This document shows, piece by piece, positions 788-38,400 of a stretch of 64,000 nt of DNA (position 1 is its first letter; each line of letters starts with the position of its first letter). The stretch spans positions 1 through 64,000 of IMG/VR virus record IMGVR_UViG_3300042860_003408. One strand, given 5' to 3'. This DNA is from a virus. The translations under genes were made by a program, and so were the position numbers. The notes beneath the pieces are model-generated. The model saw only the letters and a list, made by a program, of their open reading frames with translations, was not told the DNA's origin and did not search any database.

Positions 788-1154
788 CGGAATAATTAGT
801 TTTGAGGCAGTAGACGTATCAGTTGAAGCTGGAGCAGATAATAAAGTAGTACTTGGATATAAAACAGGATTAACAATAGAGATGAATGAGGACGAGATAG
901 GTATACTATTGGCTCCTGAGCGAGCTGTTGGGAATTCATTATATCAAGCAGGAGGCCCTCAAATAGTCGTAGGCTCAAGCACAGAAGAGCTTGTAGTGCG
1001 ATATAAGGTAAATACTGACGCTATACCTTCATTATTCAAACAAGAGGATATTATAGGTAGAATGATTATAATTAAGAAGCCTACTATTGAATTTGAGTTT
1101 GAAGATAAATCAGAAGCTCCTAAAAAAGATGTTCCTGCAGCTAATCCTGAATAA
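738..1154 (+). CDS. dUTPase-fold-like protein, 138 residues
   Basis: The order of motifs resembles trimeric dUTPases: a beta-rich N-terminus with AGAD, a GLTIEMNEDEIGILLAPERA segment in place of the usual IP-x-G-x-x-x-I-x-x-RSS strand, and an IIGRMIIIKKP segment in place of GDRIAQL near the end. The canonical catalytic residues (the Arg-Ser-Ser of motif 2 and the Gly-x-Asp-x-x-Tyr of motif 3) are not clearly present. The protein may therefore be an inactive fold relative, perhaps structural, rather than an enzyme that keeps uracil out of DNA. The C-terminus is an acidic, proline-containing tail. It is followed after 2 nt by the next gene. Confidence 0.45.
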   Translation: MKITKINNLAKTPDVTNGIISFEAVDVSVEAGADNKVVLGYKTGLTIEMNEDEIGILLAPERAVGNSLYQAGGPQIVVGSSTEELVVRYKVNTDAIPSLFKQEDIIGRMIIIKKPTIEFEFEDKSEAPKKDVPAANPE

Positions 1155-1156
1155 TA

Positions 1157-1684
1157 ATGAAATACTTTGATATAAGTGGAGATAATGTAGTTGTTCATGC
1201 AGATGCTTTAGCAATTCCAGCATTCACAGACATATGGAATAAGTTTGATGACAAGTCAATAGCTACTAATATAATAAAATATATAGTACTGAACAATCAT
1301 CACGATAGTCCATATGTCAAATCAATGCCTACTGAGATTAGAAAGAAGAAGCTAGTAGATAGATTATTCGCTGGAGACTCAGTGCTGGTAGATAGTTTTT
1401 CTGAAGCAGAGGCAATGTATGTTGCATTTACAGATACATTATCGCTACAGATGCTTAGAGGATTAAGGCTTAATATAGAGCTAATGACAAAGTCTCTTAG
1501 AAAATCAACTAACGAGGATATGTCATTTAGAGATATGAAAGAGCTGCTAGATTTAGCGTCTAAAGCAGAGAAGGCTATTAAATCTATTAAGAACTTAGAA
1601 GACCAGGTTAGAAAAGACGAATTAGAAACATCTACTGTTAGAGGCGGAGGAAAGGTTGGATATTATGAAATTCCTAGGAAATAA
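1157..1684 (+). CDS. Uncharacterised alpha-helical protein, 175 residues, upstream of packaging genes
   Basis: Not recognised by motif. The N-terminal half is mixed, with a run reading HADALAIPAFTDIWNKFDDKS. The C-terminal half (from about residue 110) is a charged helix with heptad-like spacing, ending in a glycine-rich turn and a basic tail. Position just ahead of terminase and a helical, potentially oligomeric build would fit a small terminase subunit, but no helix-turn-helix is visible and that role is only a guess. It is separated from the metalloprotease-like gene by one nucleotide, so the two are probably cotranslated. Confidence 0.6.
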   Translation: MKYFDISGDNVVVHADALAIPAFTDIWNKFDDKSIATNIIKYIVLNNHHDSPYVKSMPTEIRKKKLVDRLFAGDSVLVDSFSEAEAMYVAFTDTLSLQMLRGLRLNIELMTKSLRKSTNEDMSFRDMKELLDLASKAEKAIKSIKNLEDQVRKDELETSTVRGGGKVGYYEIPRK

Positions 1685-1685
1685 T

Positions 1686-2084
1686 ATGAAGATATATACA
1701 TTTCACCCAAACATATATCCAGTAAGAATATGGATTGTAGTAAATGGAGATAAAAGAAAACTAGCGGAAGAGTTTGAGTATATCAAAGATGGAGAAGACT
1801 ACTTACATGAAGAGGTTAATCCTAATACAAAAATGAAAACATACGCATATTGCTCTGAGTTGCTATATAATAGAAAGACAACTAATTCTGGAGTCATGAT
1901 ATACCTTGGAGCTGAGCTAAAGCCAAGTGAAATGGCACACGAGGCGTGTCATGCAGCAGATATGATATATAATTACATAGGAGAGGATACTATAGATTTC
2001 GGCTCTGAAGCAAATGCGTATTTAGTAGGTTGGATTGTAGAAAAAATAGATGAAGTTTGTCGAGTTGAATTTAAAGAAAAATAA
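1686..2084 (+). CDS. Small zincin-like metallopeptidase (HEACH)
   Basis: Residues near 80-115 read MAHEACHAADMIYNYIG, then EANAYLVGWIVEKI. HEACH fits the HExxH zinc-binding motif, and the downstream glutamate in the EANAYL helix is a plausible third ligand, an arrangement seen in small phage zincins. The rest of this 132-residue protein is a beta-rich N-terminal half. I use the ATG at 1686, immediately after the upstream stop, instead of an earlier ATG at 1656 that would overlap by 29 nt. Its place next to head genes suggests capsid maturation or processing of a virion protein, but no substrate is evident. Confidence 0.7.
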   Translation: MKIYTFHPNIYPVRIWIVVNGDKRKLAEEFEYIKDGEDYLHEEVNPNTKMKTYAYCSELLYNRKTTNSGVMIYLGAELKPSEMAHEACHAADMIYNYIGEDTIDFGSEANAYLVGWIVEKIDEVCRVEFKEK

Positions 2085-2090
2085 AATAAC

Positions 2091-2333
2091 ATGGAAAATA
2101 AATACTACACCCCAACATTGAGAGAATTGCTGATTGCAATCATAGATGGAGATGAGATTTACTCAAGAAATAAAGACAGTGAACTAATCGCATTTAAATC
2201 TAAATCTCCATTATCATCCTTATATGAATTCATAATGATAAACAACAAACAAAGCAATATTGATGGATCTATAGACTTTAGCATTAATTTAAATAATTAT
2301 TTATTAAAAATAAAAGATGGAAAGCGGATTTAA
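2091..2333 (+). CDS. Hypothetical protein, 80 residues
   Basis: The frame starts 6 nt after the previous stop and ends 17 nt inside the resolvase gene. The product has a TPTLRELLIAIIDGDEIY N-terminal segment, a serine-rich middle and an Asn-rich C-terminus. No transmembrane segment or motif is recognisable. It is kept because it lies in the operon in the correct orientation with tight spacing and is the only frame explaining this interval. Confidence 0.6.
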   Translation: MENKYYTPTLRELLIAIIDGDEIYSRNKDSELIAFKSKSPLSSLYEFIMINNKQSNIDGSIDFSINLNNYLLKIKDGKRI

Positions 2334-2820
2334 AATAGTAGATACAGGATGGGGAACGCAGGTAGAATTGACACAGATGGTATTCATAAAAGGGAATATA
2401 CCAAGCAGCAAGAACAGCAAGGTAGCAACAAGCAAGGGGATCTTCCACTCGAAGACAGTGGGAAAATTCTTAAGGGAGATGGGTATTCAACACTACTCGG
2501 TATCAAAGAAAGAGATAACCTACTACAAGACTCGGCCATGCATGTTTCCGGTAAAAGACCTCAAGGACTTAATCTCTGGGTCATTGAAGACAGGATTAGA
2601 GGGAGGGCCTATAAAAATTGGCGTTCACTTCGTTCGCCAAACAAAATCTAAGTTTGACTTCCATAATATATGTCAAATAATATTCGACTTAATGGTGGCA
2701 TTCGACATAATCGAGGATGATAATATGGACTGTATACTCCCATTTCCTATGAAGATAGATAACAAGTGGTATACGGTAGACAAAGATAATCCAGGCTGTT
2801 ATATTTCTATATTGATATAA
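2317..2820 (+). CDS. RusA-like Holliday junction resolvase
   Basis: The protein starts its fold with FIKGNIPSSKNSK, as RusA-family enzymes do. Near residues 110-145 it has KSKFDFHN...IIFDLMVAFDIIEDDN, matching the RusA pattern of Asp, Asn, Asp and the terminal (I/V)xxDD acidic cluster that binds Mg2+ and cuts four-way junctions symmetrically. A conserved lysine/arginine segment (VHFVRQTKSK) precedes it. At 167 residues it is slightly longer than classic RusA (about 120) because of an insertion after residue 40. Its position directly before terminase suggests it clears branched replication intermediates before packaging. Confidence 0.8.
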   Translation: MESGFKIVDTGWGTQVELTQMVFIKGNIPSSKNSKVATSKGIFHSKTVGKFLREMGIQHYSVSKKEITYYKTRPCMFPVKDLKDLISGSLKTGLEGGPIKIGVHFVRQTKSKFDFHNICQIIFDLMVAFDIIEDDNMDCILPFPMKIDNKWYTVDKDNPGCYISILI

Positions 2821-2853
2821 GGAATATAAATCAAAATAAACAACTAAATATAA

Positions 2854-2870
2854 TATACGTTTTTATACGT
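2854..2870 (+). promoter_or_regulatory. Direct repeat TATACGT x2 in the gap before the terminase operon
   Basis: The 66-nt gap between the resolvase and the next gene holds two identical TATACGT heptamers (2854-2860 and 2864-2870) whose starts are exactly 10 bp apart, one helical turn, within a T/A-rich stretch. This could be a promoter or protein-binding element for late genes. I see no convincing Bacteroidota -7/-33 pair, and the length is short enough for chance in AT-rich DNA. Confidence 0.25.
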
Positions 2871-2886
2871 AAAACAAACTAATGTT

Positions 2887-3171
2887 ATGAAAAACACAAA
2901 AGCAAACAAGGTGGAAGCCACTAATGAAGTGATGCCTACAGTAGAAGTAATTAACGAACAAGTTAAACCAGTGGTTAAGAAAAACTATAAACCACGTAAG
3001 AAACATAACAAGAACAAACAAGAGCAGCCTAAAATTGTTGTCCTTGCAGTAGAAGATGTGGCAATCCCAGAGAATGCCATCCTTGATGTATTTACATCTG
3101 AGGATATTACTCCTACTAAGAAAGAAAAATTTAAGTTCCTAAACTGGTTGAGAAAAACTTTTAAATGGTAA
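2887..3171 (+). CDS. Lysine-rich hypothetical protein, 94 residues
   Basis: The product is low-complexity in its first half: alternating Lys/Asn/Glu/Val, then a strongly basic block around residues 37-50 (KPRKKHNKNK). It ends in a short amphipathic, aromatic helix (FKFLNWLRKTFKW). Such a layout fits a nucleic-acid- or terminase-associated accessory protein, but no family is recognised. Its stop overlaps the terminase start by 7 nt (ATGGTAA), implying coupled translation. Confidence 0.65.
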   Translation: MKNTKANKVEATNEVMPTVEVINEQVKPVVKKNYKPRKKHNKNKQEQPKIVVLAVEDVAIPENAILDVFTSEDITPTKKEKFKFLNWLRKTFKW

Positions 3172-5213
3172 ATTTCAATAAGAAATACAAGAACGTAGAA
3201 CACTTTCAAGCCCCGGCGCTTCATTTCCAGAAGCACGGGGTTTACTGTTTTGCACCAGAAGGGACAACCGAGTATACTGAATACTGGGATAAAGAAGAGT
3301 CTAGATGTCTTGACGGATATACAGCTCCAAATGGAGATTGGATTAGTGGGTATAACTATTTCTATTTAAACTACTGCCCTATATTAAGGCTTGTAGAGAT
3401 TCAGTATAAAGATAGGAATGGAAATATAAAAACTAGACGTGAGAAGAATAGGGAGTTTCCTGACTTCTATGACTACGATGCTCATTACTTTACAGCTGTT
3501 CAAGATGCTGAAGATGATGGAAAACATATGGTTGTTCTAAAGAAACGTGGTAGTGGATATTCATTCAAGGGCGCATCAATGCTCGTTAGAAACTACGCTT
3601 TAATCCCTGAATCTAAATCATATGCCGTAGCCTCAGAGGCTGAATATCTAATAAAGGATGGTGTTTTATCAAAAGCATGGGACTTAATAGACTTTATAGA
3701 TAACAATACTGCTTGGTCAAAAAAGAAGCTTGTTACAACTAAAATGCATAGAAAGTCTGGATTTAAAATCAAAGATGAGTTTGGAAACGAGACTGAGGCT
3801 GGATTTAAATCTGAGATAATCGGGGTTACATTAAAGAATGACCCAAATAAAATTCGTGGTAAACGTGGAAAGATAATACTATTCGAGGAGGCTGGTTCCT
3901 TCAAGGATATATTGCAAGCATGGCAAATAGCTAGACCGTCAGTAGAAGAAGATGGATATGCTTACGCTATGCTTATTGCGTATGGTACAGGCGGAGATGA
4001 AGGTAGTAGGTTTGATGGATTAAAGGAGATGTTCTACCATGCAGATGGTTATAACGTAAAGACTTTCCCTAATATATGGGATACTGGAGCTGAAGGTACT
4101 AAATGTGCTTTCTTTGTACCTGTATGGGCTAATATGTCTATGCTTGATGCAAAAGGCAATAAGCTGTACATGGATAAGTTTGGCAATAGTCTAAAGGAAA
4201 AAGCCACTGACTTTGCCATGTCTGAGAGGAAGAAAGTAATAGATGGAGCGTCAGATTCAAGGGCAATAGATAGATATGTAGCTGAGAACCCAATGACGCC
4301 CCAGGAGGCTTGTTTAGAGCTCACTGGTAACATCTTCCCGAAGAAAGACCTAATGACGCAGCTCAATGCTATACGCGTCAACAAGAAGCTTCAAAACCAT
4401 AAACAGGTGGGTGATTTAAACTGGGTAAATGGCCAGGTTGAATGGACTATAAAGAAGACTGGAGATATTACTAAATATCCATTAGGTAAAGACGATAAGA
4501 AAGAAGGATCTATAGTTATATGGGAGCACCCAGTGAAAGATGCACCAGCAGGATTATATATAGCAGGCAATGACCCTTATGACTTTAACGAAGCTGCTAA
4601 TTCAACATCACTTGGAGCTACTATAGTATATAAAAGATTCCAAAACTTTGAAGAGTACTATGACATTATAGTGGCTGAATATACAGGTAGGCCTGATACG
4701 GCTGATGAGTACTATGAGAATGTGCGTAAGCTAATGATGTATTATAATGCTAGATTACTATATGAGAATGAAAAAAAAGGCTTATATACGTACTTTACTA
4801 ATAAGCACTGTGACTATCTTTTAGCAGACCAGCCTGACATTATATCAGATATTATATCTAAATCCACCGTAAATAGGCGGAAAGGCATACACATGACAAA
4901 GGGTATAATAGACTTCTCTGAGATACTAATCAAGGACTGGCTCAACGAAGAATATGCTCCTGGATACAAAAATTTAACTAGAATATTGTCTGAGCCATTA
5001 TTGGAAGAACTAATTCAATATAATAGCAAAGGAAACTTTGACCGAGTTAGAGCACTGCAATGCTTGATGATATATAGAGAACAATTACATAATCTGCATG
5101 TAAAAAAGAAAGCAGAAGAAGAAAAAAGTATGAGGCTTTTTGAAGTCCCATTATTTGGCTCTAAATGGTTCGAAACAGGTAGAGACAATAGAAAATCATT
5201 ATTAAATTTTTAA
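3165..5213 (+). CDS. terL: Terminase large subunit (TerL)
   Basis: ATP-driven DNA packaging motor with a C-terminal headful/endonuclease domain. Residues 126-136 read KKRGSGYSFKG, a degenerate Walker A (GSGYSFK) of the type seen in crAss-like terminases. A hydrophobic strand followed by FEEAG near residues 240-245 is the Walker B plus catalytic glutamate. The RNase-H-like nuclease domain begins around residue 465 with AGNDPYDF, supplying the first metal-binding aspartate, with further acidic residues in YENEKKG near residue 550. Length (682) fits the group. The first 110 residues, rich in Tyr/Asp, form an N-terminal extension. It is followed after 6 nt by the portal gene. Confidence 0.93.
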   Translation: MVNFNKKYKNVEHFQAPALHFQKHGVYCFAPEGTTEYTEYWDKEESRCLDGYTAPNGDWISGYNYFYLNYCPILRLVEIQYKDRNGNIKTRREKNREFPDFYDYDAHYFTAVQDAEDDGKHMVVLKKRGSGYSFKGASMLVRNYALIPESKSYAVASEAEYLIKDGVLSKAWDLIDFIDNNTAWSKKKLVTTKMHRKSGFKIKDEFGNETEAGFKSEIIGVTLKNDPNKIRGKRGKIILFEEAGSFKDILQAWQIARPSVEEDGYAYAMLIAYGTGGDEGSRFDGLKEMFYHADGYNVKTFPNIWDTGAEGTKCAFFVPVWANMSMLDAKGNKLYMDKFGNSLKEKATDFAMSERKKVIDGASDSRAIDRYVAENPMTPQEACLELTGNIFPKKDLMTQLNAIRVNKKLQNHKQVGDLNWVNGQVEWTIKKTGDITKYPLGKDDKKEGSIVIWEHPVKDAPAGLYIAGNDPYDFNEAANSTSLGATIVYKRFQNFEEYYDIIVAEYTGRPDTADEYYENVRKLMMYYNARLLYENEKKGLYTYFTNKHCDYLLADQPDIISDIISKSTVNRRKGIHMTKGIIDFSEILIKDWLNEEYAPGYKNLTRILSEPLLEELIQYNSKGNFDRVRALQCLMIYREQLHNLHVKKKAEEEKSMRLFEVPLFGSKWFETGRDNRKSLLNF

Positions 5214-5219
5214 GCGCTT

Positions 5220-7763
5220 ATGAAAAATCAAATAACTGCATTCCCAATACAGAAGCTTCCAATGAAGCAAAAGGATGAGGAATGGGGAGAACTATGCGTC
5301 GACTACATAATAAGTAGTGGAGAGCAGAACTCGAAGATGTTTGGAGACAAGACTGAATTCGATGAAATGAAATCGAACTACGATCTATACAATAGTATCT
5401 TTGACAAAAACGACCTGAAGTATGTTACAGACCCATTTAATCAAGAAGATGGATTTCCTGCTTCACCTCAGAACTTCAATATAATAAAACCAAAAATAGA
5501 CCTTTTAATTGGAGAGGAAACTAAAAGGCCTGACAATTATAAGATATCCAGGACCAGTCAATCAGCTGCATCAGATATGCAGGATTCTATGAAGCAAATG
5601 CTTATGGAATATGTAATGGCATCTGTAACTGCATCAATGTCAGAGGAACAAGCTGCTGAATTTCAAGCTAAGCTTGAGTCTGGTGAGGTTATGCCACCTG
5701 AGAAGATTGCGTCATTTATGTCTAAAGAGTATAAAGATGTAGCAGAATCATCTGCATATCATGCAATGAGTTATCTTAAGGAGAGGCTTAATACGAGACA
5801 TGAATTTAATAAAGGATTCTCTGACTTGCTAAAAGGTTCTAAAGAGATATTTTATGTAGGGATTCAAAACGGGGATCCTACATTGGAGCGAGTAAATCCA
5901 TTATACTTCACTCATGACACTGCACCTGACTTAGAATTCATTGAAGATGGAGACTGGGCTTGCAGACGAATGAGAATGTCTTATACAGAAGCATATGATA
6001 GATTGTACGATAAAATGTCAGAAAAAGACCTAGACAAGCTATTGGATATTACAGGACAAAAACCTACATCAGGCAAATACGGCCCTATGAAGAATTCAAT
6101 GGTTGATTACGTGCACATGGACACTATGATATCAAATCCTAGAAATGAAGACAATTTTGACTCAAATGTCGTTAACGTATGGCATGCTACATGGAAATCA
6201 TATAAGAAAATAGGCTTCGTTAAGTATATAGACGATAATGGAGAATTGGTAGAAACTGTTGTCTCTGAGAACTATTTGGTTATTGGAACAGAAGAGTCTA
6301 TTGAATGGAAATGGGTTATTGAGGTATGGGAAGGCTACAGAATTGGGGCTGATTTATACGTAGGAGTGCAGCCGATAGAATACCAACATGTATCTAGAGA
6401 AAATCCAAATTCGCAGAAATTGCCATACTTCGGCGTAATATATAATGGTGGAAAATCATTAGTGTCAATAATGAAGCCACTTCAATATATGTATATTATA
6501 CTTTGGTATCGACTTGAGTTGGCGCTAGCTAGAGATAAAGGTAAGGTACTTAATATGGACATAACGCAGATACCTAAGGACATGAATATAGATCCAGCAA
6601 AATGGATGCACTATTTATCTGCAGTAGGTGTTAACTTTATTAATCCATACGACAATGGATATGATATTCCAGGCAGAGAAGGAGGTAGGGCTAGTGGCTT
6701 TAATCAGATAGCTGCAGTGGACTTAACAATGTCTAATGTTATTGGAGAGTACGTCAATCTTATGTCTAAGATAGAAGATATGATATCAGAAATATCTGGT
6801 GTAACTAGGCAAAGACAAGGTTCTATATCAAGTAGCGAGCTTGTTGGAAATGTTGAACGCTCTGTACAGCAGTCCGCATATATAACTGAATCGTTATTCT
6901 GGACCCATAGCCAATGTAAAAAGAACGTCTTAAAAGGGCTTATAAATACAGCTAAAGAGGCATGGAGAGATTCAGGTAAGACTAAATTACATTACATACT
7001 TGATGATTCCACAAGGACATTCCTTGAATTAGAGGAGCCATTCTTCTATGAAGATATGGATATATTTGTTGTAGATTCAACTAAAGAGATGCAAAACCTT
7101 GAAATGGTTAAAAGCCTTTATCAACCTGCGATGCAGAACGGAGCTACGCTTCTTGATATTGCCGAGATTATAACTCTTGATAATATTACAGAGATGAAGC
7201 AAGCGTTGAAGCGCATTGAAGAGAAAAGGATGCAATTGCAAGAGCAGGCTAATCAAGCTGAGAATGATAGACAAATGCAGCTTATACAAGCCCAAAACGA
7301 AGCCAAGCAAGTTGAAATGCAGCTTAGGTCTGCTGAGCTTGATATGGAGAAATATAAGATAGATACTGATAATCAGACTAGAATATATGTTGCCCAGCTT
7401 AACGCATATAGAGGCGCTGAGGATTTAGATGCAGATATGAATGGAGTTCCAGATCCAATAGAACTTGGAAATCTAGCCATAAAACAAACTCAAATGAATG
7501 CAGATATAGCTGATAAGGCTATGCAAGCGTCAGAGAAAATGAGAGCTGAATCTGCTAAGATAGATATAGAAAAAAGAAAAGTAGCCGCATCTGAGAAGGC
7601 AGAGCAAGCTAAGGTAGAGATTGAGAAATCAAAACTTAATCTTGAAAGATACAAGGTAGAGCAAGCCAAGGTTCTTCAAAAAGCCAAAGATGATGCAGCC
7701 TACAAAAGAGAACAATTAAAAGCAAAAACAGCTAGAGCTAATAAGGTTTCTGGCGAGAAATAA
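5220..7763 (+). CDS. Portal protein
   Basis: A dodecameric portal at the unique capsid vertex is the expected product directly after TerL. The protein is 847 residues, in the range of crAss-like portals. Residues 80-100 contain NFNIIKPKIDLLIGEETKRP, a typical portal N-terminal signature (conserved aromatic/Pro, then GEE.KRP). The central part has the long helical stem region and a TRQRQGSISSSELVGNVERS tract. From about residue 650 to the end it is an uninterrupted Gln/Glu/Lys/Ala coiled coil that would project as the barrel or crown and may contact packaged cargo. It is followed by the scaffold-like gene after 18 nt. Confidence 0.9.
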   Translation: MKNQITAFPIQKLPMKQKDEEWGELCVDYIISSGEQNSKMFGDKTEFDEMKSNYDLYNSIFDKNDLKYVTDPFNQEDGFPASPQNFNIIKPKIDLLIGEETKRPDNYKISRTSQSAASDMQDSMKQMLMEYVMASVTASMSEEQAAEFQAKLESGEVMPPEKIASFMSKEYKDVAESSAYHAMSYLKERLNTRHEFNKGFSDLLKGSKEIFYVGIQNGDPTLERVNPLYFTHDTAPDLEFIEDGDWACRRMRMSYTEAYDRLYDKMSEKDLDKLLDITGQKPTSGKYGPMKNSMVDYVHMDTMISNPRNEDNFDSNVVNVWHATWKSYKKIGFVKYIDDNGELVETVVSENYLVIGTEESIEWKWVIEVWEGYRIGADLYVGVQPIEYQHVSRENPNSQKLPYFGVIYNGGKSLVSIMKPLQYMYIILWYRLELALARDKGKVLNMDITQIPKDMNIDPAKWMHYLSAVGVNFINPYDNGYDIPGREGGRASGFNQIAAVDLTMSNVIGEYVNLMSKIEDMISEISGVTRQRQGSISSSELVGNVERSVQQSAYITESLFWTHSQCKKNVLKGLINTAKEAWRDSGKTKLHYILDDSTRTFLELEEPFFYEDMDIFVVDSTKEMQNLEMVKSLYQPAMQNGATLLDIAEIITLDNITEMKQALKRIEEKRMQLQEQANQAENDRQMQLIQAQNEAKQVEMQLRSAELDMEKYKIDTDNQTRIYVAQLNAYRGAEDLDADMNGVPDPIELGNLAIKQTQMNADIADKAMQASEKMRAESAKIDIEKRKVAASEKAEQAKVEIEKSKLNLERYKVEQAKVLQKAKDDAAYKREQLKAKTARANKVSGEK

Positions 7764-13961: not shown

Positions 13962-16229
13962 ATGAATTACGTAAAAATACAAGACCTACCAGAAATAACA
14001 TCAACATCGAGTACGACGTATGCACCTGTTATTGATGGAGCTAGCTCAAGAACTAGCAAAATAAAATACAGCAACTTAGTTAAATCTGCCAATAATTTAA
14101 CTACCACTACTGAAGGATACGTGTTAGATGGAAGACAAGGGAAGGTTCTTGACGATAAAATAACAGGCCTATCTACATCACGCGCACCTATAGCAAATCC
14201 AGCCGGAGGAGCAAATAATTATGCCCCGCTAGCTAACCCAACATTTACTGGTAGTGTAACCGTTGATGCTGGAATTGAAACAATAAAAGATTTAACAATA
14301 ATATCTACAAAATCAATATCTTTAGCTGGTCTTATTGGTGGGGTTACTACTGATACTCAATTATTATCTGATGTATCAACTAAAGTTGCAACTACAGAGT
14401 TTGTAAAAAGAAATTTACTTTCACAATATGGTGAAAATATAGCTATAGGTTATAATTCTTTACTTACAAAAAATGATATAACTAATGCAATAGGTGGTAA
14501 TAATTTTGGAAATATAGTATTAGGATATTTAGGTATGTCTAATAATACTACAGGTAAACAAAATATAGCATTAGGTTGGGGAGTTATGAGATATAATGAA
14601 ACAGGTAATGCAAATATAGCTTTAGGTGCCGATGCTTTAGGATTTAGTTATAGAAATACTAATAGTAATGTTGCTATTGGAAATCAAGCTTTAAGACAAC
14701 TATCAGTTAATAGTGAAAGTTCATTATATAATATAGCTATAGGTGAACATGCTGGAAAAATGACAAACGGGGATTCTAATGGTTTAAACCAATCTAATGA
14801 TTCTATTTTTATAGGTAGAGAAACTAAATCAAAATCTGAAAATAGTATTAATGAAATAGTTATAGGTAAAACTGCTATAGGTAAAGGTAATAATACAGTT
14901 GTTTTAGGTAATGATTCGATTATTGAAACACATTTAAAAGGTAAGGTATTTGCTGATAGTTTAAATAGCAAATTAAACGCACCAACTGTATTAAATCATG
15001 TACACACACCTAATTCTACTCCATTTATAGAATGTACAATAACAAATGGAACAGGAACACTTGTCATAAGTGGAGCAGACTCTTTATTTAGAGCTATAAC
15101 CGCAAATAATACAACAGATGATATTTATATTGGAAATAGAGAATTAACATATAATTCCATATCTTATGATGGGACAGATGATGTATATACATTAAATATA
15201 ATAAGTACTTACAATAATACGACTAACAATTCAGATGAATCATTTGTAATACCTACAAACAGTGTAATAACACAAGGTCCGTGGAATCCTATAGAGCGGG
15301 ATGCGCAAGACCCTACTGCGATAAAAGTTATAAATACTAGTAATGCAGATACGTTGAATATAGGAGATACAATTAGAGTAACACAAACATTACCTACATC
15401 TCCTTTTACTGTAACGACTGTAGATTATGCCGTAAACGGTGTTGTTGAAACAGGAGCTATTGGAAGTTTATATAATGTACATACCATAAATGTTGGTAGT
15501 GTAGTTTCTAATATATCAACTGATTACAAAGTTAATTATGATAATAATGTTACTGTAACTATTATAAGAAATACAGCTAATAATTATCCTATTATTAATA
15601 TAGATGGTTACATAGAACAAAACAAAGATAATTCTGTTTATTTTAATTCAAGTTTAAAACCTAATATTAATAATTTTTATTCTTTAGGTAGTAGCTTCAA
15701 TGCTTGGAAAGACGTTTGGGCTATAGATAGTTCTATAAATGCTTCAGATAGTAGAAAGAAAACCATAATATCTGCATTAACACAAGATGAACTTAATGCC
15801 GCTAAGCAATTGTCTAAAGAAATGGGAACATATAAATGGTTATCAGCAATTGCCGAAAAAGGTGATAAAGCTCGTAAACATATAGGTATGACTGTTCAAC
15901 GAGCAATTGAAATTATGACAGCTAATAATCTTGATCCTTTTGATTATGGTTTTATATGTTATGATGAATGGCAAGATGAATTTAAAACTGTAATTGATGT
16001 TCAAGCAGAAGAATATCAAGCTGCTTATTCTGAAGAAATTGGAACAGATGACGAAGGCAATCCCATTGTAATTAATCATCCTGAAGTTCCAGCAGTAGAA
16101 GAAGTATCCCATCAAGAACAAATTACAGTTGCAGGTAATAGTTATTCATTTAGATATACTGAACTTTTAGCTTTTATTGCAGCTGGTATTGAAGCACGTC
16201 TAACAGCATTAGAATTTAATATAAAATAA
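13962..16229 (+). CDS. Tail/head fibre with C-terminal S74 intramolecular chaperone
   Basis: 755-residue trimeric fibre expected to bind the host surface. The N-terminal 90 residues have a fibre linker (GYVLDGRQGKVLDDKI). Residues about 155-330 carry repeated I-A-L/I-G-x-x-A-L motifs (NIALGW, NIALGADALG, NVAIGNQAL), like trimeric-adhesin head repeats. From S595 the SDSRKK signature starts a ~160-residue Peptidase_S74 chaperone that trimerises the fibre and then cuts itself off before the serine. Codon use changes along the gene: the first ~440 nt resemble neighbours, while later parts favour GGT, CAA and CGT. This suggests a module acquired by recombination. The last residues EARLTALEF resemble the auxiliary capsid end. 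Confidence 0.85.
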   Translation: MNYVKIQDLPEITSTSSTTYAPVIDGASSRTSKIKYSNLVKSANNLTTTTEGYVLDGRQGKVLDDKITGLSTSRAPIANPAGGANNYAPLANPTFTGSVTVDAGIETIKDLTIISTKSISLAGLIGGVTTDTQLLSDVSTKVATTEFVKRNLLSQYGENIAIGYNSLLTKNDITNAIGGNNFGNIVLGYLGMSNNTTGKQNIALGWGVMRYNETGNANIALGADALGFSYRNTNSNVAIGNQALRQLSVNSESSLYNIAIGEHAGKMTNGDSNGLNQSNDSIFIGRETKSKSENSINEIVIGKTAIGKGNNTVVLGNDSIIETHLKGKVFADSLNSKLNAPTVLNHVHTPNSTPFIECTITNGTGTLVISGADSLFRAITANNTTDDIYIGNRELTYNSISYDGTDDVYTLNIISTYNNTTNNSDESFVIPTNSVITQGPWNPIERDAQDPTAIKVINTSNADTLNIGDTIRVTQTLPTSPFTVTTVDYAVNGVVETGAIGSLYNVHTINVGSVVSNISTDYKVNYDNNVTVTIIRNTANNYPIINIDGYIEQNKDNSVYFNSSLKPNINNFYSLGSSFNAWKDVWAIDSSINASDSRKKTIISALTQDELNAAKQLSKEMGTYKWLSAIAEKGDKARKHIGMTVQRAIEIMTANNLDPFDYGFICYDEWQDEFKTVIDVQAEEYQAAYSEEIGTDDEGNPIVINHPEVPAVEEVSHQEQITVAGNSYSFRYTELLAFIAAGIEARLTALEFNIK

Positions 16230-16240
16230 TATATATAATA

Positions 16241-16513
16241 ATGCATATGAACAAGGTAGATATAAATGAAATTAGTATCCCACAAATGCTATCTAGTCAA
16301 AACGGAAAAACTAGTGCTACTGCTGTTGCAGGACTATGGCTAGTTCTAGTAGGTTCAATATGCTTCTGCTTTGGAGTGCTTGGATATTTAAAATACGGAA
16401 ACTCTGGAGACGCAATGCTACAAAGCCTAGGGCTGGCTACACTCGGTACATCATTATTAGTCACAAAAAGATTAAAGCCAACAAAAGATACTACAAATAC
16501 TAACATACAATGA
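16241..16513 (+). CDS. Small membrane protein, holin candidate
   Basis: About 88-90 residues with two hydrophobic segments (about 27-50, GLWLVLVGSICFCFGVLGYL; about 60-76, MLQSLGLATLGTSLLV) and a charged tail, the build of a class II-like holin. The ATG at 16247 is an equally possible start. It begins the lysis group and overlaps the next start by 4 nt (ATGA). Function is inferred from the neighbours (spanin-like protein and amidase). Confidence 0.6.
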   Translation: MHMNKVDINEISIPQMLSSQNGKTSATAVAGLWLVLVGSICFCFGVLGYLKYGNSGDAMLQSLGLATLGTSLLVTKRLKPTKDTTNTNIQ

Positions 16514-16842
16514 ACACCATATTAGAATTGATGGAGACTAAAGATTTAATAACACTAGGAGTGTTACTCGTTACATGGCTTGGAGGACTTGCCACTATAT
16601 ATACTAACTTCAACGTAAGAATCGCTGAGATAATAAAAGACGTTCTTGCAATTAGACGCGATATGGAAGATCATAAGATGGTTAATAAGCTAGAGATAAA
16701 GGAGATAAAGGATATGATGCAATCAGACAAGATGGATAATAGAGAAGACCACTTAAGGATACTTGAAACGCTAAACAAGTTATCTTCTTCTATAGCCGAC
16801 CTTAGGGTTGATTTAGCAAAAAATACAAAAACAAAAAAATAA
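16510..16842 (+). CDS. Membrane-anchored coiled-coil protein, holin/lysis accessory
   Basis: One N-terminal transmembrane segment (about residues 14-32, LITLGVLLVTWLGGLATIY) is followed by ~70 residues of charged coiled coil (AIRRDMEDHKMVNKLEIKEIKD and on). This topology is common among phage holin-like or lysis accessory proteins. No catalytic motif. It lies between the small two-segment membrane protein and the spanin-like protein with 4-nt spacing on either side, which supports a shared lysis operon. Confidence 0.55.
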   Translation: MNTILELMETKDLITLGVLLVTWLGGLATIYTNFNVRIAEIIKDVLAIRRDMEDHKMVNKLEIKEIKDMMQSDKMDNREDHLRILETLNKLSSSIADLRVDLAKNTKTKK

Positions 16843-16846
16843 TAGT

Positions 16847-17467
16847 ATGAAAGGCAAATATGTAGCCATACTAACAGGCGCATTGCTATTGATTAGTAGT
16901 GCGCTTTTTGTGTATAATGGCATAATACAGAAGAAGTACGAAGAGGAAAAGATTAATAAAGAGAGGTATAAAAGCAATGCCGTTGCATTCCAGAATGTAG
17001 CCAATGGATACTTTGAAGAGAACAGGGTCCTACGCTTGAATAGAGACGATTTAAGACAGTCTAATAATGAGATGATAAATACTATAGATTCTCTGAAAAA
17101 GTCCCGCAAAACGCCTCCAAACAAGCCTGGTGACGTCTCTACTGGGGTGACTACAGTTATACATGACACCGTTGAGGTTTTGATACCGGTTCCAGTGGAA
17201 ATTAAGGTAGACACTACCCTTGTTTACAACGAATTGACTAGTGTTAGGATAAAAATTGAAAAAAGTTTACTTTCTGGTGAATTATCTGTCAACAATACTC
17301 AGGTTTTAAACGTTTACACTTCCAGGGAGTATGTGAATGTGTATGACAACTGGTGCAAAAGGCTATTAAGACTAGACTACAAGAAGCATGATGTTGAAAG
17401 ATACACTATAGATAATACCAACAAATTAATTAAAGTTACAGACGCAATAGTAATAAAACATGAGTAA
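16847..17467 (+). CDS. Inner-membrane spanin-like (Rz-like) protein
   Basis: 206 residues: N-terminal transmembrane anchor (about 5-24, YVAILTGALLLISSALFVYN), a long coiled coil (about 28-85) and then a beta-rich domain with PVPVEIKVDTTLVYNEL. A signal-anchor followed by a periplasmic coiled coil matches inner-membrane spanins, which link to the outer membrane in the last step of lysis, but the globular C-terminus is larger than in Rz. No outer-membrane partner with a lipobox was found nearby. It overlaps the amidase by 8 nt (ATGAGTAA). Confidence 0.5.
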   Translation: MKGKYVAILTGALLLISSALFVYNGIIQKKYEEEKINKERYKSNAVAFQNVANGYFEENRVLRLNRDDLRQSNNEMINTIDSLKKSRKTPPNKPGDVSTGVTTVIHDTVEVLIPVPVEIKVDTTLVYNELTSVRIKIEKSLLSGELSVNNTQVLNVYTSREYVNVYDNWCKRLLRLDYKKHDVERYTIDNTNKLIKVTDAIVIKHE

Positions 17468-18065
17468 TAGAAAAGAACTAGTAGTAATATTGGATCCTGC
17501 TCACGGAGAAGAAACTCCTGGCAAGCGTAGTCCAGATGGAAGATTTAGAGAGTATAAGTGGTCTAGAGAGATGATTATATTGATTGGAGATATATTGGAT
17601 GATAATGGATTTAGAGTTATGTCTTCTAATGCTTCAAACAAAGAGATAGGATTATCTAATAGAGCAGAGATGGCAAACAATATAGCAGGAACTAGGAAGG
17701 TATTAATATCTTTGCATTCAAATGCTGCCGGAAGTGGTGCTGAATGGATGAATGCTAGGGGATTTAGCGTATACACTACAAAGGGAGATACTAAATCAGA
17801 CGATGTAGCAGAAGAATTAATGGTTAATTTTAAAGCAGATTTTCCTGAATTAAAAGCAAGAACTGATATGTCAGATAAAGACATGGATATAGAAGAGAAC
17901 TTTACTGTAATAGTAAAAGCTAAATGTCCGGCAGTTCTTATTGAATGGTTATTCCAAGACAACAAAGAAGACGTATCAATACTTCTAAATGAAGAATACA
18001 ATAACAGACTAGCTAATTCTATTGCAAAGTCTATAATTAATTTATATAATAAAAATATAATATAA
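17460..18065 (+). CDS. N-acetylmuramoyl-L-alanine amidase (Amidase_3), endolysin
   Basis: Cleaves the bond between N-acetylmuramic acid and L-alanine in peptidoglycan. The Amidase_3 zinc site is complete: H15 in LDPAHG, E31 in REYKWSRE, H86 in LISLHSNA, and the catalytic E162 in VLIEWLF. At 201 residues it is just the catalytic domain, with no cell-wall-binding domain and no signal peptide, so it depends on the adjacent holin-type proteins to reach the periplasm. The start overlaps the spanin-like gene, and the stop overlaps the solenoid gene start by one base (TAATG). Confidence 0.92.
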   Translation: MSNRKELVVILDPAHGEETPGKRSPDGRFREYKWSREMIILIGDILDDNGFRVMSSNASNKEIGLSNRAEMANNIAGTRKVLISLHSNAAGSGAEWMNARGFSVYTTKGDTKSDDVAEELMVNFKADFPELKARTDMSDKDMDIEENFTVIVKAKCPAVLIEWLFQDNKEDVSILLNEEYNNRLANSIAKSIINLYNKNII

Positions 18066-19492
18066 TGCAAATAAATTTTTATAAATCAAGTACGACCGGT
18101 CTGTTTATTCTTGATGATAAAATAGTTCCAGCTGGTTCATTCTCTATGAACATACAAGGAGGTGGTTCTATACAATTTTACAGACCAGATGGCTCTACGG
18201 TATTTGAACAAAGTATACTAATAGAAGATGTATTAGATGAGTCAGGGGATTCGTATGCAAGCATAAGCGCTTTAATAACAGCTGTAGCAGATTTTTTCGT
18301 TAAGGCCTCAGGCGGTGGAGGCTCAACAATAGAACTCTCTACATCGCTGACAGAGACAGTTCCAGGCAAGGCGCTAGACGCAACTGTAGGAAAAACACTT
18401 AACGATATACTGATTACTGCTCTTAAGGACGGATCATCTGCTGTTTATGTAAAAGGCGAAGGCTCCAATATCCAAAATGCAGCAGAATTACAAGCTGTTT
18501 ATAATGCAGCTAAGACAATGTCTCCAGCATTAGGAAATAAGATTACTGTAATAATAGCTCCTGGTAAGTATGAATTTGGTGCGACTGCATTTGTTCATGA
18601 TGCACCTTATATTGATTTAGTATCACTTACAGGTGAAGCTGATGTGTTTATAGGTAGTACAGAAGAAAATACAGAGTATGATTATATTTATGGAATAAAA
18701 GTAACTGCTGATAATACGCTTTTAAAGGGTGTTAATTGTGGTAGTAACACTTTTTATATAGCCGATAGTCTTGATTACTTGACTTGTACTAATTGCATAG
18801 GCGGTTATCTTTCATTTGGGAGTGAAGGTACTGTTTCAGGTACATTCAATAATTGTATAGGTGGTTTATGTACATTTGGTAGTTATGGTACAGCATCAGG
18901 TACTTTTAATAATTGCACAGGTGGTGATTATTCATTTGGTAGTAGTGGTACTGCATCAGGTATTTTTATAAATTGTAAAGGTGGTGATTATTCATTTGGT
19001 TGTGGTAATACTGCATCAGGTACTTTTAAAGATTGCACAGGTTATTATGGTTCATTTGGTGGTTATGCTGGTTATGCATCAGGTACTTTTAATAATTGCA
19101 CAGGTGGTGATTATTCATTTGGTAGTGGTGGTACTGCTGATGGTACATTTAATAATTGTACAGGTGGTGATACCTCATTTGGTAGTAATGGTACTGCATC
19201 AGGAGTATTTAGTAGTTGTATAGGAGGTGATGATTCATTTGGTGCTTATGGAGCCTGCTCGGGTATTCTTGCTAATTGTATAGGTGGTAGCGGTGCATTC
19301 GGGTCTTTCGGCAATGCGCTCGGCACTTTTAATAATTGTATTGGTGGTACTCAATCATTTGGAAGTTCAGGAGAAATTACAGCAACAGCACGACTTTACT
19401 ATTGTAAATCAGGTAGTACATTTCCAACTCCAACAGCAGGTGGTAGGATTATATACTGTATAGACGGAACAAATGCAGCAGTAAATATTTAA
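18065..19492 (+). CDS. Fibre/spike protein with ten-coil repeat solenoid
   Basis: 475 residues. The N-terminal ~100 residues are a beta domain ending in a Gly/Ser linker, then ALDATVGKTLNDIL, a fibre linker like the one in the S74 fibre. Residues about 125-235 start a right-handed beta-helix (IQNAAELQAVYNAAKTM, then stacked strands). Residues 241-441 are ten consecutive ~20-residue coils with consensus F-x-N-C-x-G-G-x-x-S-F-G-x-x-G-x-A-S-G-T, capped by a short cysteine-containing end. Likely a trimeric or monomeric beta-solenoid binding surface polysaccharide. Two positions per coil vary strongly. Translationally coupled to the amidase by TAATG although not itself a lysis gene. Confidence 0.75.
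   Translation: MQINFYKSSTTGLFILDDKIVPAGSFSMNIQGGGSIQFYRPDGSTVFEQSILIEDVLDESGDSYASISALITAVADFFVKASGGGGSTIELSTSLTETVPGKALDATVGKTLNDILITALKDGSSAVYVKGEGSNIQNAAELQAVYNAAKTMSPALGNKITVIIAPGKYEFGATAFVHDAPYIDLVSLTGEADVFIGSTEENTEYDYIYGIKVTADNTLLKGVNCGSNTFYIADSLDYLTCTNCIGGYLSFGSEGTVSGTFNNCIGGLCTFGSYGTASGTFNNCTGGDYSFGSSGTASGIFINCKGGDYSFGCGNTASGTFKDCTGYYGSFGGYAGYASGTFNNCTGGDYSFGSGGTADGTFNNCTGGDTSFGSNGTASGVFSSCIGGDDSFGAYGACSGILANCIGGSGAFGSFGNALGTFNNCIGGTQSFGSSGEITATARLYYCKSGSTFPTPTAGGRIIYCIDGTNAAVNI
18785..19387 (+). repeat. Ten tandem 60-nt coding repeats
   Basis: Ten in-frame units of 60 nt (one of 63 nt), each with one invariant cysteine codon and the pattern FNNC-xGG-xx-SFG. Several units are nearly identical at DNA level (for example around 18912-18960 and 19090-19140), so unit number could change by recombination. 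The divergence of units at the xx pair is greater than elsewhere. Confidence 0.9.
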
Positions 19493-19513: not shown

Positions 19514-19843
19514 ATGAAAAACTTACAATCAACAACGGAAAATAATTGGGTAGAAATTAAACAAGTAACACTAACCCAAGAAGAAAAGGAATTGCTAAGA
19601 AGTACTTCTGAAACAGATAAAGTAGTTAAAAAAACTTTGATGGATAGAATTAAAGCAGAAAGAGAATTAGTAGCTGATGAAGCTGATGTGGTTCTTGCTC
19701 AAGCTGCTTATGATTCAATTAAGCCTGTATTAAAAGAAGGCGATACTTATCAATTAATTGCTGTTAATTTTACTATTGATAATGGTGTCAGAGGTATCCT
19801 TAATTGCAGGGTCAATGATGGACACATTCAAAAAAGATTATAA
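19514..19843 (+). CDS. Hypothetical fibre-associated protein, 109 residues
   Basis: A charged helical N-terminal half (QEEKELLRSTSETDKVVKKTLMDRIKAERELVADE) is followed by a short beta hairpin domain (YQLIAVNFTIDNGVRGILNCRV). Small proteins of this kind between fibre genes are often fibre chaperones or caps. That is inference from context only. Codon choice (GAT, GCT, CAA, GGT) is closer to the repeat part of the preceding gene than to the virion genes. Confidence 0.55.
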   Translation: MKNLQSTTENNWVEIKQVTLTQEEKELLRSTSETDKVVKKTLMDRIKAERELVADEADVVLAQAAYDSIKPVLKEGDTYQLIAVNFTIDNGVRGILNCRVNDGHIQKRL

Positions 19844-32404: not shown

Positions 32405-35400
32405 ATGACAAGAGAAGACATTAAAAGGGCTTTGCAGGGTGAAGATACGAGATTTGGCGAATATGTTAGGTCTCGTAGCTCTGTTTATGGCCAAGGAAGA
32501 AGCGAACTTGACGAACTAAAACGCAGAAATGAATACGAAGAGGCTAAGCGCAAGCGCCCCTCTAAAGATGAACCTAAGCGCAAAGCGGCTCGCGATGAGT
32601 CAAAAGACGCAGAAGATGGGCAGAAAAAACTGCCACTTGAAAATGAAACTAAAAAAGGAAATGATTATAACTTCTTTGCCGATTCATATAGAACGTTTGT
32701 AGGCGGAAAAAACCAGACAGAAATAGACAATGCTCTAGGAGAGTTAAAATACAACCTTCCTGTGTTTAAGTATTCATCAGATATGCTCTCATCAAAGGAG
32801 GTTCAATCTGATGAGGATTTATATAAGGCAGCTAGGTTTGCAAGGGAAATGCAGTCGAATGCCAAAGCACAGGCTTTATTTCAAAAAAATGAAGAACTGT
32901 CTGCAGAACAAGCCAGGCTTAAATCTCTATATGAAAGTGGAGATAAAAGCGTTTCTGCTGCATTCATAAATAACGAGCCATGGAACCCAGAATCAAAAGG
33001 CAAAACAATATATAGTTTAACTGGGGCTGTGCAGCAAGGAGAAGGGCCTAGTTTTCTTGAGAAAGCAGATATGATGATGGGCGCGTCTCATGGATATGCT
33101 GAGTGGGAGCAAATGAAAGGAATGGTGAGTGGGTTATTTAGAACCGTTGGCACGTCATTGGTAGCAGCCGCTGTTGCTCCTGTTATATCTGTAATGGGCA
33201 AAGTATCTCTAGGAAATGCAGTTGGCAATATACTTGGAGGGCTTACACTTAAAACTGCAGCAGATGTCGCAATTGATAAGCCGGTAGATCTAATATCAAA
33301 TCTATCTGATGCAACTAGATTCTCAATGGGATATGTTCCAGCTGTAGCAGGTGGCCTAATCGGAGCTGGTGTTAATAAGTTTATGCCGTCTGGTGATGTA
33401 AGACAAGGTTATATTGATATAGACGACTCATTGGTTCCAGAAGATACTAAATATGCCTATTCAAAATACAAGGACTTAATAAAAAACTGGTCAAAGGTTG
33501 GTGGAGATTTTGATGGTACAATTCCATCCATAGATGACGTGCTTGACGGAAAGGAGTCTCTACACTCATATACTGGAGAAAAGGTTGGTAAATTTGACTC
33601 GGTATTAGCTAAAAAAACAAAAGATGCACAAGAAAGCATAAAGACTGACTTGAATGATCTTAGGATGTGGGGAGCTCCATCTGAATATGCTACAAAGAAA
33701 GTAGAAGAAAATGACTGGTATTGGGGCAAGATGCTTAATACAAGTGGGATGTCTATGTCTGAGTTTGAAGGGCAGGTCGGCTTAATAGCATTAAATTCTG
33801 CTATATCTTTGGCTACAAAAAAGCCAACAATTGGAACTAAATTATTGTCTTCTCTAGCTCTTACTGGAGCTAACGCTGCTTTTGCTGTAAGAAGTAGAGA
33901 TAGTGAATTCTTTTCTCAGTTTAGTCAAGCCTTTAACGAGAAGCAAGATGCTATACTTGGAGAGAATGCTATATCTAAGATGTCATACGAAGAACTTCTA
34001 TCTCATATATCTGAGCCAAAGGAAACTATGGACAAAGTAATGTCGCAATTTGGGAAGTATGATAAATCTCAAGAGAGACATAAAAGAGAGACGCTAGAGA
34101 TGCTTATTAGAACTGGAATTGTTAAATCAGATATACCTGGAATAAATGAAGCAGCAGTAGCCGCTAGCGATGGCTCGGATGAGCTTGCTAGACAATATAG
34201 GTCTATGATATACTCAGATATGGGTCAAAATGGATTAATGCTAGCTAGTTTAATGCCTATAAAAGGTGGTATTCCAAAGGCCATGCAAGGACTGGCAAAA
34301 TCTACTTCTGATTATTATAAGAATCTATCATTATCGTCTTTTATTAGAAACAATAGAGCAGGAAGAGTTCTTGGAAAAACAGCTCAATTAGCATCAGAAG
34401 TTGGATGGGAGGCGTTTGTAGACGAACCTCTATTTGAAGAAATCCCACAAACAATGATGGATATGAAATTCAAAGAAGGCTCATTAAAAGAAAATGCAGG
34501 AATCTTTGGATCTTATTTGGATAAAAACAAAACCATAAGCACTGGCGCTAAAGCATTATTTGGATTATCTGGAGACGAAAGATATGATAAAAACGCAGAA
34601 TTGCTTGATACCTATTGGTCTACTGTTATGTCTGTAGCGTTTATGGGTGCAGGCAGAAACGTGATATCATCTCCTGCTCATATAAAAGAACTAAATAGAA
34701 GCTTTAATGCTGATAAATTATTTGATTCAGTTATAGAGCCAGGTATTAAGACATCTGCATTTAAAGCAAAGGCGTCTGCATATATAGGAGCTGTTAAGAA
34801 TGGTCAATTTGATTTTGTAATTGAAAACTTAAAAGAACTTCAAAAGAATCCACCAGAAGGATATACTGCAGAAGATATTACTAATGAAATTAAACTGGCT
34901 AAAAGAATTGCATCTATAGCTGATAGTAAATTTGTAAGAGAATATGCCAAGAAATCAGGTGGCTATGGTTCAGAGGACCACTTATTGCTTACATCATTAA
35001 TATCAGACCATGAGAACGCTGCAAGAGAAGGATATCTTGAGAGCAGAACGGCTAATGAAGCTGAGGCTAATCTTCTTGCTAATTTTGACGAGACTACATT
35101 TTCTAAATTAGTTACATCTATAAATACAACTAGGGAGGACGCAGATAAAATAAGCACTGGAGCTGCAATAGGTATTGCCATGCTTAGAAATAAACTAGCT
35201 GCTATTGCTACGATATCAGTGAATGACCCTCTTGAGTCTAAGGCTTCAAAAATAAAAAGCAACTTAATAACGAGAGCCGCATCAGATGATTTAGGAAGTG
35301 TATCTTCTAATTTAATAGATGCATTATTAAATGCTAAATTAATAACAGAGGAGCAGGGGGCTGAACTTCTAAAAATAGAAAACTCTAAAGATCTTAGTGA

Positions 35401-38400
35401 TGCAATTGATGAATTTGTTCCTATTGAGCTTAATGATGATATTAAGGACATGGCTTATGGATTAGTATCTTCATACGGAGCTCAATATGAAGAACATATG
35501 GCATCCATACTTAGAGGAGATCAAACTCTTTACAATAGAGAGAAAGACACAAAAGTAGATAGATTCCATGATGTAGACGAGCTCCTTGATATGCATAGAA
35601 AGTCTCTTGAATCTAATGAAAAAGAGCAGAGAGTTCTAGAGGCTGCTGAAACCAAAAGAGAAGAGAAAAAGAGGGAAGCTAAAACAAAGCCAGAAACAAC
35701 TGTAGTAGCCGAGCCTGTTGTAGAACCTATTGTAGTTGAATTGGAATCATTAGAGCCAAAGTGGGAAATACCATCTGCTCCTGAAATAGTTGAATACGAA
35801 AGCCTAGAGTCTGCTCCAGAAGTAGAGACAGAGCAAGTTCCACCACTAGACGAGACAGATATTCCTCCATTAACTGAGGCCGACTTGAACTCATCAGTAA
35901 ATAGAGCCGAGGAATTGTTAGCAGATGACAACTTCGATCCATTTAGCGATTACGATAAAGAGGAGGAGGCTGCTAAACAGGCCGCAGATAATCAGGAGGA
36001 GCAGGCTCCCACACAAGGAATTACAAATAATGGGACAATTTACCCAGTGCTGGACTTAAGTAAAATAGATACAGATAATTTTATATATGTAACTCACCAA
36101 ACAGATATCGTCGGGCTAGAACAAATTCTTTCAAGAGGGTTTGATATAAGGAATGGGCTAAATGGAACATCATTGTTTGGGAATACAGAATCTATTCAAA
36201 GCCAAATGGACAGTATTAATTCTGGACACGGCCATAGAGGGGCTAGCAGGATGATTGTATTCGCATTCCCTAAATCAAAATTCGGGAATGTAAGGCAGCT
36301 GGATGAAATATCAGATATGCTTATCGATGAGGGAATATTTTCTATTCCCGGCCAATATGTATTTGGAGTATTCACCGAAAATAATAAGCCAATCACACAA
36401 GAAGCTGCTCCACAAAAATCCAAACAAGACGAGCTTAAGGAGAAATTAAACGCTAGACTAGCTCACTTGGCTGATGTTGCCACGGATGTTCTTGGATCTA
36501 AAATGAATGCTACTGGAAAGCAATATTCAAGCAAAGACTTCTTACCAGCAATGACTGGGGTACTAGAGGTTATTATGGAGCTTGGATATACATCATTCGT
36601 AGATGTAGTATCTAATGCATCTGATGCTATGAAAGGAAATGCAGTACTTGCAGGTCTTATTGATAGAATTAGCCCTAAACAATGGAGAGCTGCTTATAAC
36701 TCGGCTGCAGACTTTGCAGAAGGTACACAATCAGAGGAGGAAGTTATAGCCTATTCTAATGATGATGTAAAAGCTATTGTTGCTGGAACATATAAGAAAG
36801 AAGAAGAGATCGATATCAATGAAGATTTAGAAGATCTTAATCAGCCAGAAAAGACTGAGGAAGAAGAGAATAAAGAAGCGTCTAAAGAGATATCAGAAAT
36901 AGTTAAAGGCGCTGCTGCTATATCTATTGCAATGGAGAAAGAGGATTCTTCTGACTTTGTAAATATAGATGACGAGGCTCCTGGCACAATTGACGAGGAT
37001 AAAGTCTCAGTTAGATTTGGTAGATTGCCACATACACTATTTACGTCTAATCCAGAAATAATTAAATGGTTAAAAACTCCAAAAGCCTTAGAAGGCGCTA
37101 CATTTGAAATAGAGATATCTACAATACCTTTTGATAAAGTGCCACAATCTAGAAAGGACGCAGGAGACTATATCCCATTCGACATCAATAATCCTAATTC
37201 ATGGAACGAGGCTGCAATATTTGTTAAAATAAAAGATAAAAATGGCGTAGTTAGACCATTGAATATAAGCTTCCACAACATAGCAGTTAATAGCATGTTT
37301 GAGGATTCTGATGGCAATATGTATCCTAAGTTCAACGAACAGGATATCGCTGATTTAGTTGATTTTAGAAATAAGATAATAGCTTTATATGCAGAAAGCT
37401 TAGCAAATGGTTCTAATAAGGAATTAGTTGTATCTGGCGTATCTATAGGTAGAGCTAAGATAAAATTAAACAGAAAGAATGGTAAGCCGGTACAGAGAAG
37501 CCTGTCTAAAATCAAAGGACTAATAGAAGGCTTTAATGGAGATTTCTCTACTATAAACAACAATACATTAAGCTTAGCTTACGGTAGGGGGTGGAGAGGT
37601 AATTTTACTGTAGTTGGAATTGACGGAGTGATAGGTGATACTGATGAACAGAACTCTGGTAGTATGTTTGCAGTAAAGATTGACCCTGTACTTGGAACTA
37701 AAAGAAAGATAAAATTAAATAAACGTAGATTCTCAGAAGATAAAGATACTGCAGAATTTATATACAAACTACTTATAGACTGGAACATGTCTAAAGGTGA
37801 GTTAGCGTTAGACCGAGACGGAAATGTTGTTTTGGCCGGAGACGGTGCGTCTAATAGGTTAGGTATATCAGCAGAAGGCTTATTGTCTAAGATAGTTAAC
37901 TTTGGAAAAAGAACTCAAATTAATAAGAAGGACTTGCCAATGTTGACCCACCTGCTTCCAAAGCAATTCTACGTAGAAGGCAATTCACTATATCTAGGAG
38001 AAGCTAAGTTTGACATATCAAATCCAGCTGGAATATCTCCTGAAATTAAAGCTCAGATAATAGACTACATTAAGAATAACTTTAACTGGTCTATCAATGC
38101 TCATGACTTATGGAATCAAACTGGAGCTAATAGAAAGGTGGCTGATGTGTTTTCAGGTATCACCGACTACTTCAGATCTAATCCAGAAGCTAAATCAATT
38201 AAGTTCTTTGAAGGAATGGAAATTAAGAGAGAGGACTTAGGTTTAACCTGGGAAGCTTGGATTGTTAAATACGATAAGCTTATATCTGACGTTGCCGATG
38301 ATATCTTTGAATCTCCGTATACATTCTTAAATGATGTAGAGCTTGCAGATAGAATGGATAAGCCAACTATCAAGAAAGTTGCAAAGAAAAAGACAGATGC

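Follow-up and report, generated by a model that had tools for sequence, protein, structure and literature searches.

Phage Fiber Cassettes and Repeat Proteins

In the Alteromonas phages A5 and V22, a tail fiber and its DUF4376 chaperone are exchanged as a cassette (PMC10579305). In crAss-like phages, tandem repeats of the BACON domain are encoded near the tail genes, and a function in host binding has been suggested for them (PMC6949934). The DNA described here, called the window, is a stretch of 64,000 nucleotides (positions 1 to 64,000 of IMG/VR record IMGVR_UViG_3300042860_003408) and forms part of an 85,865-bp record of a crAss-like phage. It carries a gene for a repetitive solenoid protein followed by a small companion gene. 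The repeat, its family, the gene pairing, the copy-number variants, the dN/dS pattern, and the solenoid model reported below were all obtained by computation.

Like the Alteromonas module, this cassette consists of a fiber-type gene and then a small partner gene, spread over distant phage families, and both small proteins have helices and a β-hairpin. However, the companion described here is not matched by DUF4376 and has 109 residues rather than 195–239, and the proposed fiber is a repeat solenoid. The BACON repeats of crAssphage are likewise in tandem near tail genes, but whole domains are repeated there, whereas single 20-residue solenoid coils are repeated here. The β-helix tailspikes (Dettilon gp208, 6f7k; K2-2 TSP, 8iqe; HK620; and Sf6) share with the solenoid protein a predicted β-solenoid, a tail-gene neighborhood, and an exchangeable N-terminus. 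In contrast to these tailspikes, the coils here are near-identical, 20 residues long and variable in number, with no sequence similarity, a low TM-score, and no catalytic site identified. Pentapeptide-repeat proteins (MfpA, AlbG, QnrB1) also have about 20 residues per coil and give weak structural and profile matches, but their A(D/N)LXX motif is absent from the coil consensus and the matches are weaker than those to tailspikes; the Pentapeptide_4 profile matches one of 25 members (4e-4), and tandem A(D/N)LXX motifs were not found.

The Solenoid Gene and Its Repeat

The cassette is composed of the following features.

18065-19492, plus strand: solenoid open reading frame, 475 aa
18065..18418, plus strand: phage-specific N-terminal region, aa 1-118; the alignment with relatives in other phages starts no earlier than about residue 101-123; pLDDT below about 63
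18419..18793, plus strand: N-terminal solenoid cap, conserved, aa 119-243; four relatives are 37-49% identical to it; pLDDT 77-98
18794..19396, plus strand: ten coils of 20-21 residues each; pLDDT mostly 90-98, about 63 in the last coil
19064..19064, plus strand: T>G difference (Tyr334Asp) in the coil 5 loop between the window and the strain IMGVR_UViG_3300042508_000132 (L002)
19397..19492, plus strand: C-terminal cap (YYCK...CIDGTN) and stop codon; kept in nearly all relatives; pLDDT about 51-63
19514..19843, plus strand: 109-aa companion, a proposed fiber chaperone or cap

A sequence-only reading of this DNA had proposed ten coils, and ten coils that each start with a cysteine (244, 264, 284, 304, 324, 345, 365, 385, 405, and 425) are indeed present. 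Nine of them have 20 residues and coil 5 has 21, with the consensus C-x-G-G-x-x-S-F-G-x-x-G-T-A-S-G-T-F-x-N. The same reading held that F-x-N-C, GG, and SFG are kept in every coil, and here the cysteine stood, being invariant in all ten, whereas each motif as a whole fails somewhere: F-x-N-C is replaced by FKDC, FSSC, or LANC in some coils, GG by GY in coil 5, and SFG, found in eight of the ten, once by TFG and once by AFG. C1, G3, F8, and G9 are identical throughout the window coils. The repeat is far above chance, because its TRF score reaches 625 and the DNA identity among coils 1–7 is 65–85%, whereas the background averages 40% and does not exceed 50%. An 80-aa open reading frame at 18981-19223 was rejected as a gene; it reads the repeats in another frame. 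Automatic parsing, from which the coil counts of the family and the table of 227 unique coils derive, missed window coil 1 or split coil 8, and the ten-coil table of the window was built with corrected coil positions.

AlphaFold (monomer) gives repeating strands with pLDDT mostly 90–98 over residues 130–420 and low confidence in residues 1–118 and beyond about 430. The best PDB matches in Foldseek are tailspikes and pectin methylesterases, with the Dettilon tailspike at the top; the probability is up to 0.99, the TM-scores are mostly 0.2–0.34 and all below 0.45, and no E-value is below 0.001. The solenoid fold anticipated from the sequence thus has a confident model behind it. The protein is predicted to be a parallel β-solenoid like those of tailspikes, at low TM-scores. 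In most coils a strand reads T-A-S-G-T-F-N, and its alternation, together with conservation, suggests that A14, G16, F18, C1, G3, and F8 point inward. The stacked cysteine ladder proposed earlier is reasonable, because Cys is near-universal in the family; the 227-coil table is anchored on Cys and is no independent proof.

Carriers and Genome Context

When the protein, its repeat, and an N-terminal cap alignment were used as queries, 27 distinct solenoid genes were found, that of the window included; one of them lies on a contig of a Paludibacter genome, and all the others are in IMG/VR. The cap alignment gave 28 viral loci and one genome locus, and further loci came from a scan in which the companion was the query. 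The N-termini vary between phages, and the cap, coils, and C-terminal cap are common to them. Searches of Pfam, PHROG, PDB sequences, and INPHARED found no named homologue of the solenoid protein: no Pfam or PHROG family was matched, nothing significant came from PDB sequences, and neither INPHARED phages nor PLSDB plasmids matched the cassette. The repeat family and the gene pair are real, and apparently undescribed so far.

The Phage_fiber_rpt profile matches one of 25 relatives (8e-4), and no further sequence match to a known tail-fiber family was found, so the tail role is proposed from the gene neighbors. In the window, the cassette is preceded by a tail fiber gene with an S74 chaperone domain (13962-16229) and by an N-acetylmuramoyl-L-alanine amidase gene, and it is closely followed by genes for ring protein 1, ring protein 2, and the muzzle. 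The interval between the two fiber-type genes (16241-18065) contains small open reading frames and the amidase gene and is possibly a lysis cassette; the amidase alone was identified. Elsewhere in the window, two open reading frames are unusually large (32405-50617, 6070 aa; 50638-57669, 2343 aa).

Matches to the crAss muzzle occur in seven of 18 carrier records. Immediately before the solenoid gene there is a collar-domain gene in L003, a record that also has a baseplate hub, and a gene for a tail-collar-like protein in L074. Another carrier (L037) has DUF2586, and a 120-kb carrier record has a phrog_11589 head protein and PhoH. Judged by their gene content, the carriers appear to be different phages: crAss-like phages, contractile-tail-type phages (one in the Paludibacter genome), and the phage of the 120-kb record.

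The Companion Gene

In 24 of the 26 testable cases, a companion homologue follows the solenoid gene, directly adjacent in 22 of them, a chaperone-type position; L029, at a contig edge, was left out. One gene separates the two in L012 and L013, Anp1-like in L012, and no companion is present in L019 or L034. The scan with the companion found 22 further loci. Upstream sequence could be used for 19 of these, and in 18 of the 19, some of which are near-duplicates, it contains a solenoid gene.

The exception, L069, has a companion without an intact solenoid gene upstream. Its segment L069:1953-2276 begins with an N-terminus like that of L068 and continues with an out-of-frame tail end, and the companion is kept; this looks like the remnant of a solenoid gene stripped of its coils. 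L017 has tandem solenoid genes (820-4152 and 5011-7050), each with its own companion gene. In four loci (L012:2496-3244, L013:6787-7518, L045:4295-4984, and L064:4225-4965), a glycosyltransferase-like gene occupies the slot between solenoid and companion, belonging to family 25 in L045 and looking alike by eye in L013 and L064. This cargo-like gene might modify the fiber or the host surface.

The companion is modeled by AlphaFold with a pLDDT of 95.5. Its fold has no significant match in PDB or BFVD, and its sequence has none in Pfam (DUF4376 included), PHROG, or PDB. The companion profile also hit protein A (E 0.0045), which was taken as chance. With no match to known chaperones in sequence or fold, the chaperone role is proposed from position and pairing.

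Change in Coil Number

The similarity of the coil DNA had been taken to allow copy-number change, and this expectation was confirmed: relatives hold 4 to about 23 coils per gene and include clean whole-coil losses. Between L030 and L032 there is an in-frame loss of 186 nt, equal to three coils, with ten mismatches in the 324 nt before it and two in the 617 nt after it. One 63-nt coil present in L023 is absent from L057, and the flanks of 187 and 197 nt have zero mismatches. Because short-read assembly can collapse repeats, some copy-number differences could be artefacts; the loss in L057, on a 4.2-kb contig, is the most suspect case and could be such a collapse. Recombination would be the route of coil loss.

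Variability and Selection within Coils

The two residues before (S/T/A)FG, positions 5 and 6, had been read as YL, LC, DY, DY, YG, DY, DT, DD, SG, and TQ, and they read identically in the window. That variation is confined to this pair was an overstatement: among the ten window coils the pair has entropies of 1.96 and 2.65 bits, the second residue of the loop after SFG has 2.73 bits, and the residue two positions before the next Cys has 1.88 bits, and in relatives position 4 also varies. Over the 227 unique family coils, no site varies more than the pair (3.16 and 3.51 bits); the loop comes next (3.03 bits), and then position 2 (2.59 bits). Positions 5 and 6 are polar or charged in 72% and 42%, a residue make-up that suggests exposure.

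A comparison of 68 syntenic coil pairs, which come from metagenome contigs and are non-independent, revealed that dN exceeds dS at the variable pair. The ω value (dN over pooled dS) of the pair is 2.62 (bootstrap 1.95–3.57) and that of position 4 is 2.95, compared with 1.11 in the loop, 0.88 at other outward positions, and 0.08 in the core. The pair value stays at 2.34–2.84 when any single group is left out; in the small group L008/L031 (three pairs) it is 0.57. Gene conversion between coils could inflate dN/dS.

At the strain level, the window and L002 have two differences in 17,425 bp, namely Tyr334Asp in coil 5 and a silent change in the S74 fiber gene. Conservation of the pair between strains had been named as a finding that would refute the proposal; the pair is unchanged at this 99.99% identity and is not conserved at larger distances. 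Near-identical loci provide two coil substitutions in all, one affecting a loop residue (window/L002) and the other position 3 (L023/L024), which is too few for strain-level inference on the pair.

The ω values bear on an alternative in which the coils serve passively as a spacer or rod, positions 4–6 are relaxed, and recognition takes place elsewhere, for example at the S74 fiber (13962-16229). Such a fiber is encoded in the same genome, and the wide range in coil number is what a spacer would show. However, dN of the pair is about 2.6-fold dS, compared with about 0.9 at other outward positions, and a ratio above 1 is not expected from relaxed constraint alone, so the spacer reading is unlikely.

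It is less likely still that the solenoid is an enzyme such as a depolymerase, as many right-handed β-helix tailspikes and pectin-degrading enzymes are. The Foldseek neighbors, tailspikes and pectin methylesterases, would suit this function, but inspection of the cap and the coils revealed no obvious conserved acidic catalytic group, the coil number varies freely, and the TM-scores of the matches are below 0.45.

Ice-binding β-solenoids use Thr/Ser-type ladders, and many coils carry T-x-S-x-T-x-N. The steadier Thr/Ser/Asn face (T13, S15, T17, N19) might be the working surface, for example a flat and regular one as in ice-binding solenoids, and the variable edge incidental; these four residues are only moderately conserved (1.6–2.4 bits), however, and we regard this explanation as improbable.

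Hypermutation of the pair by a diversity-generating retroelement would fit amino acid variation concentrated in a putative receptor-binding protein, and phage receptor-binding proteins are known among the targets of such elements (PMC10743442), but it is very improbable, because no reverse transcriptase (PF00078) was found in the record of the window and 17 other carrier records, most of which are fragments.

Proposed Function of the Cassette

Taken together with the gene neighbors, the pattern suggests that the solenoid protein is probably a receptor-binding tail fiber or spike of a crAss-like phage, with a dedicated assembly partner, and that the two are moved as a cassette. The phage-specific N-terminus, presumed to be the virion attachment region, would anchor the protein to the virion, and the conserved cap would begin the β-solenoid; ten coils would then make a rod that is closed by the C-terminal cap. 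The residues read as inward (Cys1, Gly3, Phe8, Ala14, Gly16, and Phe18) would stay fixed, and positions 4–6 of each coil, and to a lesser extent the loop after SFG, would diversify under selection. Diversifying selection on this coil edge implies that a variable patch, repeated along the rod, may face a ligand on the cell surface, for which a polysaccharide of repetitive structure is plausible. Whole coils would be gained or lost in frame by unequal recombination among them. The 109-aa product would act as a dedicated partner, most probably as an assembly chaperone or transient cap, and both genes would travel together among unrelated phages, probably of Bacteroidota.

A more specific and tentative proposal is that the protein is a modular recognition rod, in which each coil bears a contact patch that evolves independently, so that the ligand would meet an array of contacts instead of a single site, and in which no mutagenic retroelement takes part. 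Whole-coil copy-number change combined with diversification at the same few positions of each coil sets this protein apart from an ordinary fiber. If this proposal is true, a phage could retune its binding by swapping, adding, or deleting coils. Little is known about the proteins with which crAss-like phages bind their receptors. Because the cassette is present in many viral contigs and common to unrelated phages, it provides a natural series of coil numbers and sequences with which one can ask how a repetitive rod recognizes the host surface.
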